The notes beneath the pieces are model-generated. The model saw only the letters and a list, made by a program, of their open reading frames with translations, searched no databases and was not told the origin of the DNA. From Bacteroidia bacterium (GTDB lineage Bacteria > Bacteroidota > Bacteroidia > B-17B0 > Aurantibacillaceae): DNA of 64,000 nucleotides. The stretch covers positions 1 through 64,000 of the forward strand of contig JAEUTP010000007.1 in the NCBI GenBank assembly GCA_016787705.1, read 5' to 3'. Below are positions 34,866 through 41,987 of this stretch, piece by piece; within the stretch, counting starts at the first letter, position 1, and each line of letters opens with the position of its first letter. Position numbers and translations under genes: made by a program.

Positions 34866-37580
34866 TTAAGAAACTGTAGCTAAACGTTCTTTTCCAAATT
34901 CAAGGATCTTGTCAATAAATTCGTAAGGCTTGTAATTATTAATAGCTGCCTGGTGAAAAATACAGGTAGCAGGTGTCATACCCGGTAACGAATTAACTTC
35001 AATAAAAACAACTTCTGTTCTGCAATCTGCAAATACACGCACAAAAGCATCAATGCGACAATAACCTGTAACGCCTAATGCTTTAGCAGCTCCACCCAAT
35101 GCTGCTTTTACCTGGTCGCTAACTTTTTGCCTGTCTTTGGCATCTTTTGCATAACGCGCGGGAGTAATATTTTGACCTTGACCCGCTAAAAATTTTTCTT
35201 CCAAACTTAATATCTCTCCATCTGCTAAGGCTTCTGATGCCTCAAATACTTCGTATTCTATTTCGCCATTCCTATTTAATTTGGTAAGCATGCCACCGGT
35301 AATTTCTAAAAAGTGAAGCGCATCTTTTTTGCTGATCAGTTCTTCAACAAGGATCACCTGCTTTTGTGGAAATTCTTCTTTTGGTTTTATATGTAGCTTT
35401 TCGGCTGCTTTCGTATCAAGGTCTTCAGCTGCTCGGAAGATCAATGTACAAAAGGCTTCAAATTCTTCTAATGTTTTTATTTTCTTAACCGCACTGCTGC
35501 AACCATCATCAACTGGCTTGGCAATAAATGGATATTTAATACGATTAGATAAGATCTCAACAAATTTATTTTTGTCTTTTGTCCAGTCTTCTTTCGAAAT
35601 TAAAATATGATCGGCAATAAGAAAACCGTTAGATTTTAAGATTTCATTCGTTCTGTATTTATCAATTGTAATAGAAGAACTTTCTTTATTTGAACCGTTA
35701 TAAGGTAAATTTATTTTATCTAATTGCTCTTGTATTGCGCCATCCTCGCCCGGGCGACCATGCAGTGCAATAAACACTTCATCGGCTTTTTGTTTTAAAG
35801 AAGCGTAGGTTAATTTTTCGGGTTCTGCTGTATGGTTAGCTGATGCATATTTATGCGTTATTGCTTCACATTCCTGCATTATTTTTTTGATGACCGAATG
35901 CACTTTAAAATTCTCAACTTTTTCTTTTATATCATCTGCATTATCTTTTAATAATAAATTAATAGGCACATGGTACATTTGATGTTCTTGCGAATTACCT
36001 GTAAGGAAAACGGGAAAGGGTGCATATTTTTCTGAAGAAGATAATTTTTCAAAAACATTTCTTCCACTTTCTACAGAGATATGCCTTTCAGAAGAATAGC
36101 CTCCGAGCACCACTGCAACACGCGTTTTATTGCTTGCCGCATTTTTTTCGTTATGAATTTGCTTATCTAAAAGATCCAATAAATGTTTGTAACTAATATT
36201 TCCTTTTGATTGAATCAATCGTTTTGAAAGGGAGGTGCGAATAATGAATGTTAAGAATTGCGATGGATTTAATCCAATTTCTGCTGCCTGGTGAAAGAAA
36301 AACGAAGAAGGCATCATGCCACTGGTAGTATTTGGGTCGTTCAAAAATATTTTTCCATCCTTACTTAAAAAACCATCAATACGCGCATATACATCAAAGT
36401 GTAATTCGTAAAATAATTTTTCACAATCTTTTCTTATGGCTTCAATTTGCGTATCCGGTAAGTCAATAGGTGTTATCTTTCTTGAAAGGCCCGGTAAATA
36501 TTTACTGCGGTAATCAAATAATTCTTTTCCTTTTTTTATTTCGGTTGGTGGTAATGCAATTGCTTTTCCTTCCTCGTCTTCCAACACAATGCAACTAAAT
36601 TCTTTTCCTTCAATAAACCCTTCTACTAAAACAGTACTTTCACCATCAATACTTTCAACAACAAAACCGTCTGTTTTTAAATTGGCGTTTAAAAATTCAA
36701 TTAATTTATTGGGATCGTAAATTACAGGTGCGTTTAATTCTTTTGGATGGCTAATAACCACAGGCATTCCCATGCCTTCTCGAATATCAGCTAGTACTTT
36801 TACATAATTGAATTTTTCTTCATCACTATATCTCTGCCATTCTTTTGCATCTATCCATTTTGTAAACAAAGCTTTTTCAACAGCACTCATAAATTCAAAA
36901 TCGTTCGCTTCATTTAAAATACTCACACCAATGCTAGAGCCTTGATTAGCCGGTTTAACTACACAAGGAAAGCCGATCAATTCTGCCACTTTTTTAAGTG
37001 ATGTTTTTGCTTTTCCTTTAATCCAATCCTGCCTATTGATGGTAAGATATTTAGGGCTGTTAAAACCCTTGCTTACCATCATCTCTTTTTGTATTGCCTT
37101 ATCAATACCAATGGCTGATGCTAAAATACCGGAACCACTGTAAGGAATTTTATGGTATTCAAATAAACCTTGTATACGGCCATCTTCACCATAAGGGCCG
37201 TGCAAACATAAAAACGCAAAGTCAATTTTTGTTTTTAGTTCTGATGGATTTAATTTTTTTCCGATCTTTTGTATCAATGCACTTTGTTGTTCTTCGTTCA
37301 GGTCTCCTAAATTTTCGGCATATAACTGAAAGCGATGATCCCGATAGCTATCGGGAGTAGGTAAAAAATCTACCGGGGGATAAAAATCACGAATAGTGCC
37401 TTTGTAAATAAATTCCCAATTCAATTCAACAAAATTTCCAAAGCTATCAACAAAAACAGGAACGGCCTCAAATAAAAATTTATTTAAATTATCGTAAACG
37501 GTTCTTCCACCCGCAAAAGAAATTTCGCGCTCTTTACTTTGCCCGCCAAAAATGATCCCGATCTTTATTTTATTTGCCAT
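34866..37580 (-). CDS. tandem D-alanine--D-alanine ligase-like fusion (two ATP-grasp units)
   Basis: 904 residues from the ATG at 37580; an in-frame upstream codon at 37646 would add a Cys-rich, non-family lead and is rejected. Two complete Ddl-like units follow each other: unit 1 begins IIFGGQSKEREISFAGG (about 8) and ends ARIDGFLSKDG ... NDPNTTSGM (about 415); unit 2 begins VVLGGYSSERHISVESG (about 488) and ends CRIDAFVR ... IEVNSLPGM (about 860). A single Ddl is usually 300-370 residues. Unit 1 has Asp in place of the Mg-binding Glu of the NE.NT.PG motif. Likely makes the D-Ala-D-Ala of peptidoglycan, perhaps with one unit altered. Codons 75-80 come from a perfect 18-bp palindrome. Confidence 0.87.
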   Translation of the reverse strand: MANKIKIGIIFGGQSKEREISFAGGRTVYDNLNKFLFEAVPVFVDSFGNFVELNWEFIYKGTIRDFYPPVDFLPTPDSYRDHRFQLYAENLGDLNEEQQSALIQKIGKKLNPSELKTKIDFAFLCLHGPYGEDGRIQGLFEYHKIPYSGSGILASAIGIDKAIQKEMMVSKGFNSPKYLTINRQDWIKGKAKTSLKKVAELIGFPCVVKPANQGSSIGVSILNEANDFEFMSAVEKALFTKWIDAKEWQRYSDEEKFNYVKVLADIREGMGMPVVISHPKELNAPVIYDPNKLIEFLNANLKTDGFVVESIDGESTVLVEGFIEGKEFSCIVLEDEEGKAIALPPTEIKKGKELFDYRSKYLPGLSRKITPIDLPDTQIEAIRKDCEKLFYELHFDVYARIDGFLSKDGKIFLNDPNTTSGMMPSSFFFHQAAEIGLNPSQFLTFIIRTSLSKRLIQSKGNISYKHLLDLLDKQIHNEKNAASNKTRVAVVLGGYSSERHISVESGRNVFEKLSSSEKYAPFPVFLTGNSQEHQMYHVPINLLLKDNADDIKEKVENFKVHSVIKKIMQECEAITHKYASANHTAEPEKLTYASLKQKADEVFIALHGRPGEDGAIQEQLDKINLPYNGSNKESSSITIDKYRTNEILKSNGFLIADHILISKEDWTKDKNKFVEILSNRIKYPFIAKPVDDGCSSAVKKIKTLEEFEAFCTLIFRAAEDLDTKAAEKLHIKPKEEFPQKQVILVEELISKKDALHFLEITGGMLTKLNRNGEIEYEVFEASEALADGEILSLEEKFLAGQGQNITPARYAKDAKDRQKVSDQVKAALGGAAKALGVTGYCRIDAFVRVFADCRTEVVFIEVNSLPGMTPATCIFHQAAINNYKPYEFIDKILEFGKERLATVS
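37339..37356. repeat. 18-bp perfect palindrome TCCCGATAGCTATCGGGA inside ddl
   Basis: TCCCGATAGCTATCGGGA is its own reverse complement. In the minus-strand ddl frame it encodes part of TPDSYRD. I recall CCCGATAGCTATCGGG as a frequent dispersed palindrome in Bacteroidota genomes; this is the only copy I see in the window. Confidence 0.6.
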
Positions 37581-37853
37581 ACTTAAAATTACACTACAAA
37601 GGTGAATATTATTCAAAAATAGAGGAAAGCAGCCGCGCTGAAACATCTGAATTTGGAAATAATTAACATTCGTATGTAAATACCGTAAGGCCTGTTTATG
37701 CCGCTCATCAAGTGTTATAGAAGGTTAAAGGTCTGCGAAATCGGTTTTAGGAACAAAACCGGCGGTAAAGTGCTTAAATTTATCGGTAAGTTAAGACACT
37801 TTTTAGTGCTTGCCTTTTAAATAATATCAAAACAATTTGTGCGGCTTTATGCT

Positions 37854-39113: not shown

Positions 39114-40436
39114 TTATAGCTTAAAGCGTAAACCAGCATTTATAAAAAGACGGTCCTCATTTAATGGATAAGAAGAAGAATTTATAAGCAGTTTGTTTTT
39201 TGAAAAGCCAATAAAATAAGAAGGCTTAAAAATTACAGATAGTTTGTTATTTAAACTATAGCTAATTACCGCGCCGGGCAAGGCACCCAGGTTCACCACC
39301 TCTGTAGTTTTAAAATTATCTTCTTCTTTAAAATAAGATGGTACAATGTTAGAAGAAGGCGGATCGGGCTGACCTTTGATATATAAGAAAACTTCATCAC
39401 CATAATACTGGGCGTATCCATGGTTATATTTTGTATAACAAACATTAAATAGTGCCGATGCACTTATGCTTAATTTGTTTTTTTGCAATAATAAATATTC
39501 TGCACCTAACGCAAAATGGCAAGAATAATTTGCGCCTATATTATATTCTGTAAACGCTTTTATGTAATAAGTAGAATCGAATTGCGCGCTTGCCGGCGAG
39601 CTGCTAATACTTATTACCTGTTTGGTGATCTTATTTTGGCTGGTAATGTAACTGTAATTTAAATTACCCTTATCAAAAATAAATTGCCCACATACAGTAA
39701 ATTTATTTTGCAAAAGATAATTTATTGAAATACCCGCTAAACAACCTATATCTTTATTTTTTTGTTTAAAATCCATGTGTTGAACGCGGCGTTTGTACGA
39801 TAAACCACTACCTCCAAAAACATCTATGCTAAGCGCCGAAATCGGATTTTGCGAGTTGTATGCATTTTTAAATTCAGGATATATCTCGCGCAGACTTTCT
39901 GTTGCAAAGCTTGGTATCTGAAGGCGCTGGAGTATATCGGCAAACAGGTTTTTTTTCGAAATAGTATCTGTTACAAAATCATAATTTTGTTTTTGGCGGG
40001 TGGGAAGAGTGAGATCATTATAGTTTTTAAATATTTGTTCTTTAGCGTTGAGTGTAATTGTTTTACAACCAGAAACTATAGCGCCATGAATTGAAGGTTT
40101 GTATTGTTTTTTATGCACATTTGAATTTTGGGTAATCTCATTTTGCTGAGCTGTGTTTTCTGAGATAGATTTGTTAGTTGTTTTTACCTTGGGTTGAGCT
40201 TTAGTCTTTTTGTAAACAACGGAGTCTTTTGCAAAAGGCGTATAAAACAGTGTGCCTATTAAGCCGGCAATAAATAAAGCTGCGCCAATAGATAAAATGA
40301 AGAAAGCGCCGCGTTTTTTCCTTTCTTTTTGGGGTACGAAATATTTTATTTTTTCCCAGTTTTGGTTAATAGCAAGGTCATCCACTTCAGGTTCAAAGTG
40401 GATGAATTTATTTTTTATGGTTTCTTTATCATTCAT
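39114..40436 (-). CDS. trans-envelope protein: cytoplasmic head, inner-membrane helix, predicted outer-membrane beta-barrel
   Basis: 440 residues with an unusual plan. Residues 1-42 are charged (EVDDLAINQNWEKIKYFV) and end in KERKKR; 44-66 are a strong transmembrane helix (FFILSIGAALFIAGLIGTLFY) without a cleavage site; 67-190 are a Lys/Asn/Gln-rich linker; about 198-440 are amphipathic beta strands (SIDVFGGSGLSYKR, NIGANYSCHFALGAEYLLL, INAGLRFKL at the end) as in small OMP beta-barrel proteins. Its ATG overlaps the stop of the ECF sigma gene (ATGA), so it is probably the sigma regulator (anti-sigma role). No zinc-binding anti-sigma motif is visible. Function inferred from position and plan. 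Confidence 0.75.
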   Translation of the reverse strand: MNDKETIKNKFIHFEPEVDDLAINQNWEKIKYFVPQKERKKRGAFFILSIGAALFIAGLIGTLFYTPFAKDSVVYKKTKAQPKVKTTNKSISENTAQQNEITQNSNVHKKQYKPSIHGAIVSGCKTITLNAKEQIFKNYNDLTLPTRQKQNYDFVTDTISKKNLFADILQRLQIPSFATESLREIYPEFKNAYNSQNPISALSIDVFGGSGLSYKRRVQHMDFKQKNKDIGCLAGISINYLLQNKFTVCGQFIFDKGNLNYSYITSQNKITKQVISISSSPASAQFDSTYYIKAFTEYNIGANYSCHFALGAEYLLLQKNKLSISASALFNVCYTKYNHGYAQYYGDEVFLYIKGQPDPPSSNIVPSYFKEEDNFKTTEVVNLGALPGAVISYSLNNKLSVIFKPSYFIGFSKNKLLINSSSYPLNEDRLFINAGLRFKL

Positions 40437-40984
40437 ACGGCCTGTTGTTTATGATATACCTTTAATAAATCTTTTAAATAGGCTTTTGCTTTAAAGAGTT
40501 GCGATTTTGAGGTGCCTACACTTATACTAAGTAATTCAGAAATTTGCTGGTGTGTATAGCCATCTATGTAAAACAGATTAATTACTATTCTGTATCCCTC
40601 TGGCAATTGATTTAATAAAGTAAGGATTTCTTTATTCGAAAAAGCTTCAAATACAGACGTAAAACTGTCATCGCCTATATCAATCTCATCTGTTATAGCA
40701 ACATGCAGGTCAAATTTTAAATTACTCCGGTAACTATTAATAGCAGTGTTTTGCACAATGCGTTTCATCCAGCCTTCAAAAGAGCCTTTTATATTAAAAG
40801 AATCAATGCTGTTAAAAATCTTAATGAACGAATCTTGTAAAATATCCTCAGCTTCAGCTGTATCACGACTATACCTTAACGCAATGCCTAAAAGTATCCT
40901 ATAATAACTTTTATAAAGTGTTTCAAAAGATTTTTCATCTTTAGCCTTACAACCTTTTATTATATCATTAAGGTTAATTTGCAT
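40433..40984 (-). CDS. ECF-type RNA polymerase sigma-70 factor
   Basis: 183 residues with the two ECF domains. Region 2 (about 20-90): FETLYKSYYRILLGIALRYSRD, AEDILQDSFIKIF, FEGWMKRIVQNTAINSYR. Region 4 (about 120-175): LPEGYRIVINLFYIDGYTHQQISELLSISVGTSKSQLFKAKAYL. Binds core RNA polymerase to activate a small regulon. It overlaps the barrel gene by 4 nt (ATGA), so the two are translationally coupled. Confidence 0.93.
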   Translation of the reverse strand: MQINLNDIIKGCKAKDEKSFETLYKSYYRILLGIALRYSRDTAEAEDILQDSFIKIFNSIDSFNIKGSFEGWMKRIVQNTAINSYRSNLKFDLHVAITDEIDIGDDSFTSVFEAFSNKEILTLLNQLPEGYRIVINLFYIDGYTHQQISELLSISVGTSKSQLFKAKAYLKDLLKVYHKQQAV

Positions 40985-41036
40985 TATCGGACATAATTCA
41001 AAAAGTGTACCGTTTTTTTGTGATTTTACATATTTG

Positions 41037-41918
41037 TTACTCTTTTATGAATTTTATATTTGCCTGCCCGCCATTTTCGAATTGTATTTTAGCAAAATAA
41101 GCTCCCGGTAAAAATCCTTCAAGCTTTATTTTACTTTCTGTGCTTTGCAAATCAGTTAGGCTTAAAACTTCCGTAGCTAAAAGGTTATAAACTTTTATGC
41201 TGTTAAAAGGTATTTCTGTTTTTATAGTTAATATGTCGCGGGACGGATTTGGATAAAATAAAGTCTTATTTTTCTTGGAATTATCTTTAATAGCATTTGG
41301 GCTATCGCAATTTATATTAACTGCGGCATAAGCAAAACAGGTATCGTTTGGTGTATTCATATCCCACTGGTTTACTTTAACAATATAGTTGCCACAGTTT
41401 GCATAGGTATGCGTATAATTTGTTGTCGGCTGCGAATTGTCTCCATACTCATAATTGGTAAATATTTCGGGAATAGCTATGCCAGCCCAAACTGTAACAG
41501 AATTGACTGCCAAAGTTACACTGGCTGTATTGTTAACACAAAGCGTTGATGCCGGCGGGTTTACAGTAATTGTAAAAACCTGAACATTAGCTACCGGCCC
41601 GCAAAGCACAGGCGAAGTATAAGTAAGTGATACCGTATAATTAGTTGTAACCGTTACCGGTGAATAGCAGTGAAAGATAATTTTGCCGATACCATTGCTG
41701 CCGTCATGAAACTGCCATTGGTAATATGAGTCAGGATCATTAGGAACGCTATTATTGGCCGTTAATGAATAACAACCGTACGTATTTGGAATTGGCGTAA
41801 TGGTTACCATCGGCACGCAGGGATTTACTAATGTATATGTTAACGATGGGCCAAAAGCAAAAACACTTTTAACAAAAAACAAACTAAGCGCGCAGATAAG
41901 TAATTTTATGGTTTTCAT
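41037..41918 (-). CDS. secreted protein with PKD-like domains and T9SS sorting domain
   Basis: 293 residues with a signal peptide (ends SVFAFG). The mature part holds two Ig/PKD-like stretches (CYSLTANNSVPNDPDSYYQWQFHDGSNG; TNYEYGDNSQPTTNYTHTYANCGNYIVKVNQWD) rich in Thr, Val and paired Cys, then a sorting domain (LFYPNPSRDILTIKT to LPGAYFAKIQFENG). Predicted surface or released T9SS cargo of unknown function. It lies 52 nt upstream of the sigma factor gene on the same strand. Confidence 0.8.
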   Translation of the reverse strand: MKTIKLLICALSLFFVKSVFAFGPSLTYTLVNPCVPMVTITPIPNTYGCYSLTANNSVPNDPDSYYQWQFHDGSNGIGKIIFHCYSPVTVTTNYTVSLTYTSPVLCGPVANVQVFTITVNPPASTLCVNNTASVTLAVNSVTVWAGIAIPEIFTNYEYGDNSQPTTNYTHTYANCGNYIVKVNQWDMNTPNDTCFAYAAVNINCDSPNAIKDNSKKNKTLFYPNPSRDILTIKTEIPFNSIKVYNLLATEVLSLTDLQSTESKIKLEGFLPGAYFAKIQFENGGQANIKFIKE

Positions 41919-41987
41919 AATTTAATAGTTTATGGTTCTATATATAAGACAAGAACTTAAAACAAAAGGTTGCCTGGGTTTTTAAAT

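Follow-up and report, generated by a model that had tools for sequence, protein, structure and literature searches.

The locus and its genes

The window, as we call the whole stretch of 64,000 nucleotides that was analysed, carries on its minus strand a putative operon in which the gene of a secreted protein is followed by that of an ECF sigma factor and, overlapping it, by that of a 440-residue protein. In the order of transcription, the features are as follows.

41945..41974, minus strand: promoter-like element GGCAACC-N16-TGTCTTA, 26 nt before the start of the PKD gene, invariant at 6/6 loci
41037..41918, minus strand: operon gene 1 (P0003), coding for a secreted protein of 293 aa (Por_Secre_tail and PKD_4 matches; orthologue co-occurrence)
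41000..41015, minus strand: element ACGGTAC-NN-TTTTT in the gap between the PKD and sigma genes, present at 4/6 loci and the sole exact match in the window
40433..40984, minus strand: ECF sigma factor gene (P0002), 183 aa (Pfam regions 2 and 4, orthologues, likeness to Das2)
40433..40436, minus strand: ATGA overlap of the sigma stop and the anti-sigma start (the plus strand reads TCAT)
39114..40436, minus strand: putative Dma-type anti-sigma factor gene (P0001), 440 aa (AlphaFold2 architecture, Foldseek, profile homology)

The open reading frames and coordinates of the sigma and 440-residue genes, the ATGA overlap between them and the gap of 52 nt from the PKD gene to the sigma gene had all been described in an earlier, sequence-only reading of this DNA, and each is present in the sequence as claimed. 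The sigma factor matches Sigma70_r2 (6.1e-18) and Sigma70_r4_2 (4.4e-16) in Pfam, and the genome holds about 20 ECF sigma genes besides it. The element ACGGTAC-NN-TTTTT stands some 20 nt ahead of the sigma gene. Elsewhere in the window, a 926-aa ORF (34866-37646, minus strand) appears to consist of two D-Ala-D-Ala-ligase-like halves in a single chain, and similar ORFs of about 900 aa adjoin a sigma/anti-sigma pair at loci L116, L117 and L118.

A predicted single chain from the cytoplasm to the outer membrane

Searches of Pfam, NCBIfam and PHROGs gave no true match to the 440-residue protein, its barrel included, and with no family match of its own its parts were therefore tested through structure and relatives. 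The structure was predicted with AlphaFold2 on a homologue alignment of six rows, and together with the composition of the chain it points to four parts.

40311..40436, minus strand: cytoplasmic head, residues 1-42, two short helices, the probable sigma-binding part
40242..40307, minus strand: inner-membrane helix, residues 44-65 (composition; helix 36-65 in the model)
39840..40241, minus strand: disordered polar periplasmic linker, residues 66-199 (pLDDT)
39117..39839, minus strand: predicted eight-stranded outer-membrane barrel, residues 200-440 (AlphaFold2 strands; Foldseek)

In the model, the head consists of helices 7-11 and 20-31 and is followed by a single long helix, 36-65, whose residues 44-65 are free of charges and are preceded by a stretch rich in K and R on what would be the cytoplasmic side. 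Residues 65-197 have a pLDDT below 50, which gives a linker of about 135 residues (123-173 in the homologues). The strands span residues 202-439, in a block with pLDDT mostly of 78-92 and some weaker loops, and when the AlphaFold2 strand list is read as up-and-down strands there are eight of them (202-218, 226-243, 246-274, 287-319, 322-354, 372-394, 399-418 and 421-439). On this reading, the short turns at 244-245, 320-321 and 395-398 would face the periplasm and the longer loops the outside. A Foldseek search against the PDB ranked the transmembrane domain of OmpA highest, and Ail, OmpX and NspA were also near the top, these four at TM-scores by target length of 0.55-0.70; the scores by query length are low because the head and the linker are counted in the query. 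The chain ends in NAGLRFKL, a pattern of the outer-membrane beta-signal, and the homologues end in GLRIAL, GLRINL, GLRFNL and GARVFF; at locus L006 a short tail extends beyond a similar motif. No relative with a solved structure was found for the head or for the protein's subfamily.

The earlier proposal that one polypeptide would reach from the cytoplasm to the outer membrane is thus supported by the predicted parts and by the barrel matches. A soluble beta-sandwich for the C-terminal domain, which would have spoken against the proposal, can be set aside, with residues 202-439 modelled as a membrane barrel and matching outer-membrane barrels. The other doubt, that the helix might be a cleaved signal peptide, is answered by the relatives. 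Mean pairwise identity among the protein and its homologues is 0.52 in the head, 0.16 in the linker and 0.28 in the barrel, and F11, P16, I23, W27, I30, F33 and P35 of the head are invariant. Conservation of the head so far above that of the linker and the barrel makes a signal peptide unlikely and points to a conserved intracellular partner, and the helix is accordingly read as uncleaved. An apparent second, partial head lies ahead of the conserved one in the homologue of genome G050 (L006:1459-2880, minus strand), and head-like stretches are duplicated at L043, L052 and other loci as well.

Conservation of the gene pair

In a survey of 87 genomes of the family (a search at the level of the order returned the identical 87), the pair of sigma factor and 440-residue-type protein was found in six, the window's own genome included, a small sample in which five are from one genus. 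The homologues of the 440-residue protein all lie directly downstream of an ECF sigma gene, with an overlap or near overlap, and the sigma orthologues in the five other genomes are 54-91% identical to that of the window. The same pair in five further genomes is more than chance would give; the view that the two genes are chance neighbours was rejected, and the finding bears out the expectation that they would be conserved together.

A sigma-profile scan of genome contigs extended this picture to 80 loci across the Bacteroidota phylum. The downstream gene could be read at 78 of them, and nearly all of these genes encode a head and a transmembrane helix. Their C-terminal ends, classed heuristically by a simple rule, are barrel-like in 52 proteins, T9SS type-B in 11, short in 11 and of other kinds in four; among 52 aligned members (the family of the window protein included), Pfam assigns OMP_b-brl_2 to 19 and OMP_b-brl to 16. 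The genome of the window itself contains two further pairs of an ECF sigma factor and a head, transmembrane helix and barrel-like protein (L014:2044-3492, plus strand; L015:93-1469, minus strand). Genes upstream of sigma were noted at the flavobacterial loci L050, L051, L054, L059, L069, L077, L079, L105 and L110: at many flavobacterial loci the pair lies about 100 nt downstream of an apparent recA, and at others the sigma gene is preceded, at a distance of 6-30 nt, by a short gene for a lipoprotein-like product of about 140 aa. These lipoproteins had no Pfam match and were not accepted as NigD.

It is extremely improbable that the product of the downstream gene is an ordinary outer-membrane protein whose leader is unusual in staying uncleaved, and that the gene shares a transcript with a sigma factor unrelated to it: the head is far more conserved than the barrel (0.52 against 0.28), a gene for a head and transmembrane helix follows sigma at nearly all of 79 loci while the distal modules differ, and the protein is homologous to Dma2, as set out below.

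Probable membership in the Dma/Das family

The single-chain trans-envelope Dma/Das design was reportedly described in gut Bacteroides by Pardue et al. in PNAS in 2024. A second family member was published in 2026 (Pardue et al., J Bacteriol, PMC13088901). Dma proteins are defined by an N-terminal sigma-binding domain, a transmembrane helix, a long disordered tether and a C-terminal barrel, occur only in Bacteroidota and are encoded next to an ECF21 sigma gene; Dma1/Das1 and Dma2/Das2 are the pairs of Bacteroides thetaiotaomicron (PMC13088901). The earlier reading had set the architecture apart from the usual separate FecA/FecR and RseA/OMP designs; that the design would be new is not supported, since it had already been published as the Dma family (PMC13088901).

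As a test of membership, a Bacteroides-type dma2 operon was located by its DUF4943 gene. Its order (sigma, Dma2, DUF4943, a protein of about 220 aa regarded as DUF4858, and one resembling a monooxygenase) equals the published one (PMC13088901), and it is on this gene order that the identity of Dma2 in the comparison rests. A simple HMM of the head missed the window protein (E above 10), found its homologue at L002 weakly (0.049) and was replaced by profile-profile comparison. The subfamily of the window protein matches 46 other sigma-adjacent proteins at 99.0% (2.7% for a reversed-sequence null), and this wide family of 46 in turn matches Bacteroides Dma2 at 98.5% (null 0.3%; hmmsearch 7.8e-23). 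The direct match of the subfamily to Dma2 is weak (38.6%) and confined to the head and transmembrane region, and a head-only profile matches the wide family at 69%, with an E-value of 4.3e-5 for one comparison. The sigma factor and Das2, its counterpart in the Bacteroides dma2 operon, share 33% identity (E 1.8e-31). A FecR match was sought in the window protein with Pfam at an E-value of 1 and none was found, so that it is not classed as a FecR-type anti-sigma factor.

On these grounds, the two proteins are filed as a putative Dma/Das-type pair, with membership by way of profile intermediates, and the assignment as sigma and anti-sigma factor, which had rested on position, now draws on Dma2 homology as well. 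That the window protein would inhibit its sigma factor is suggested by analogy with Dma genetics, where the hypervesiculation of delta-dma2 requires das2 (PMC13088901).

The secreted cargo and the promoter-like element

The first gene of the operon encodes a protein with an apparent signal peptide, two PKD-like regions and a T9SS type-A C-terminal sorting domain (Pfam: Por_Secre_tail 1.6e-9, PKD_4 3.6e-8). Strong orthologues (E 5.2e-56 or better) occur in exactly the 6/87 genomes that bear the pair; in the other 81 the best match is 6.6e-10 and most matches cover the C-terminal region only. If cargo and pair were independent, identical sets of six genomes would be expected with a chance of about 2e-9, a statistic that ignores descent. 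The cargo gene stands directly before the sigma gene at five loci, in the same operon order, and at L115 it is the second gene upstream, with another T9SS protein between.

The 5' flanks of the cargo genes share the element CAGGCAACC-N16-TGTCTTA, CAGGCAACC being the GGCAACC block with the preceding CA, which is invariant at 6/6 loci with a spacing of exactly 16, the remaining flank being unconserved. The 14-base pattern has one exact match in each pair-bearing genome (6/6), at the cargo flank, and no exact match was found in eight genomes without the pair; a reversed control pattern gave about 2.5 matches per genome at up to one mismatch. The shorter GGCAACC-N16-TGTC is unique to the cargo flank in 4/6 genomes. 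We infer that the element, whose layout fits an ECF promoter, is a candidate target of the window's sigma factor. An invariant, once-per-genome element with an ECF-like layout makes it very probable that the operon of cargo, sigma and Dma genes is autoregulated, and the operon may be the whole strict regulon, as judged with a single strict pattern that weaker sites can escape. The earlier suggestion that the PKD/T9SS gene could be a target thus gains support from co-occurrence and from the conserved element.

The element might instead be a site for another regulator, in a genome with roughly 20 further ECF sigma genes. We consider this quite unlikely, given its two blocks at a fixed 16-nt spacer, with AAC in the upstream and GTC in the downstream block, its place near the gene start and its exact occurrence only in genomes with a sigma factor of this type.

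Proposed mechanism

The locus very likely encodes a Das/Dma-type pair in which a trans-envelope anti-sigma factor silences an ECF sigma factor that controls an autoregulated cargo operon. The computed support for this reading is the architecture, the conservation, the Dma2 homology, the co-inheritance of the cargo and the promoter-like element; binding of the head to sigma, insertion into the outer membrane, the trigger, proteolysis and the role of the element as the promoter used by this sigma factor are what we infer. The head would bind and silence the sigma factor at the inner membrane, with the linker spanning the periplasm and the barrel inserted into the outer membrane. Should the barrel become occupied, fail to assemble or be pulled, this outer-membrane change would abolish the function of the head, probably through proteolysis near the inner membrane, and free the sigma factor. 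The freed factor would recognise one strong site, the element upstream of its own operon, and would raise the output of all three products, the PKD protein secreted by the T9SS as well as the sigma and anti-sigma factors, so that one surface protein would be made in a burst that limits itself.

Two tentative proposals can be made for the signal that the Dma barrel would sense. The exported PKD cargo could itself be the signal, docking on, plugging or otherwise engaging the barrel, so that the pair would sense its arrival at the surface and feed back on its own operon; we hold this to be somewhat unlikely. In its favour are the strict co-inheritance and order of cargo, sigma and Dma genes at 6/6 loci, the apparent lack of a second strict target and the CTD protein PorA acting upstream of a sigma pathway in P. 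gingivalis (PMC7712824); against it, co-inheritance is expected equally if the cargo is only the regulated product. With much the same modest probability, the pair may monitor barrel assembly: a periplasmic barrel that is not folded or not tethered would free sigma, rather than an external ligand, as in RseA but with the substrate built in. The C-terminal beta-signal and barrel on a single-chain tether fit such a monitor, as does the general Dma architecture (PMC13088901), but for a general sensor of envelope stress one would expect a broad regulon, and one strict site was found per genome. The one-operon regulon leans slightly towards a dedicated partner. Since the window system offers a single candidate partner, sensing by its Dma barrel is directly testable.

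T9SS type-B proteins beside sigma factors

Elsewhere in Bacteroidota, 11/78 sigma-adjacent proteins have the anti-sigma head, transmembrane helix and disordered linker but end differently: in place of the barrel they carry PKD domains together with a type-B (CHU_C) signal for the T9SS.

L092:4536-5852, plus strand: type-B sigma-adjacent protein with head, transmembrane helix, PKD domains and CHU_C signal
L036, L038, L045, L046, L049, L053, L067, L071, L098 and L107: further type-B loci

A PorP/SprF-like gene comes next at five of them (L036, L038, L045, L049 and L092; confirmed by Pfam in two), and anchoring of type-B T9SS proteins by PorP-like barrels has been proposed (PMC9143113). It is possible that these proteins are T9SS-delivered trans-envelope anti-sigma factors, and a literature search found no paper describing T9SS type-B anti-sigma factors. 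More speculatively, the window pair could be a dedicated sensor of type IX export, its barrel detecting its own co-inherited surface cargo with feedback through a single-site regulon, and the type-B/PorP-SprF forms a second version in which the T9SS carries the distal end out; we regard this as somewhat unlikely. A head and transmembrane helix that recur with varied distal ends (none, a barrel or a T9SS type-B signal) may point to a module for signalling across the envelope that is general in Bacteroidota.

Comparison with known systems

The PorA/PorXY/SigP system of Porphyromonas gingivalis likewise has a T9SS-linked ECF sigma pathway with a CTD protein placed upstream, but takes the route of a two-component system and has no trans-envelope anti-sigma factor (PMC7712824). 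RseA/RseB/sigma-E of E. coli shares with the window pair an anti-sigma factor that crosses the membrane once and conveys the state of the outer membrane; RseA differs in having no barrel, in using DegS to sense unfolded porins and in its large regulon. In FecA/FecR/FecI, too, control of an ECF sigma factor starts from a barrel in the outer membrane and passes through an anti-sigma factor in the inner one, but the TonB-dependent transducer barrel and the anti-sigma factor are separate proteins, whereas the window pair is predicted to have them in one chain. The closest likeness is to Dma/Das, with the same head, transmembrane helix, disordered tether and barrel and a cognate ECF sigma gene adjacent. 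The barrel region of the window protein is longer (about 240 aa) and below Pfam detection, and the partners differ, being DUF4943, DUF4858 and a monooxygenase downstream in the dma2 operon and a T9SS-secreted PKD protein upstream in the window operon, which also has a single strict promoter site per genome. What is new relative to the published Dma design is that the system is strictly paired with a secreted protein of the cell surface, the two sharing a single putative promoter. The Dma design is thereby extended to an uncultured lineage of Bacteroidota with a T9SS cargo, in a very small case that apparently comprises one promoter, a cargo, a sigma factor and a trans-envelope anti-sigma factor.
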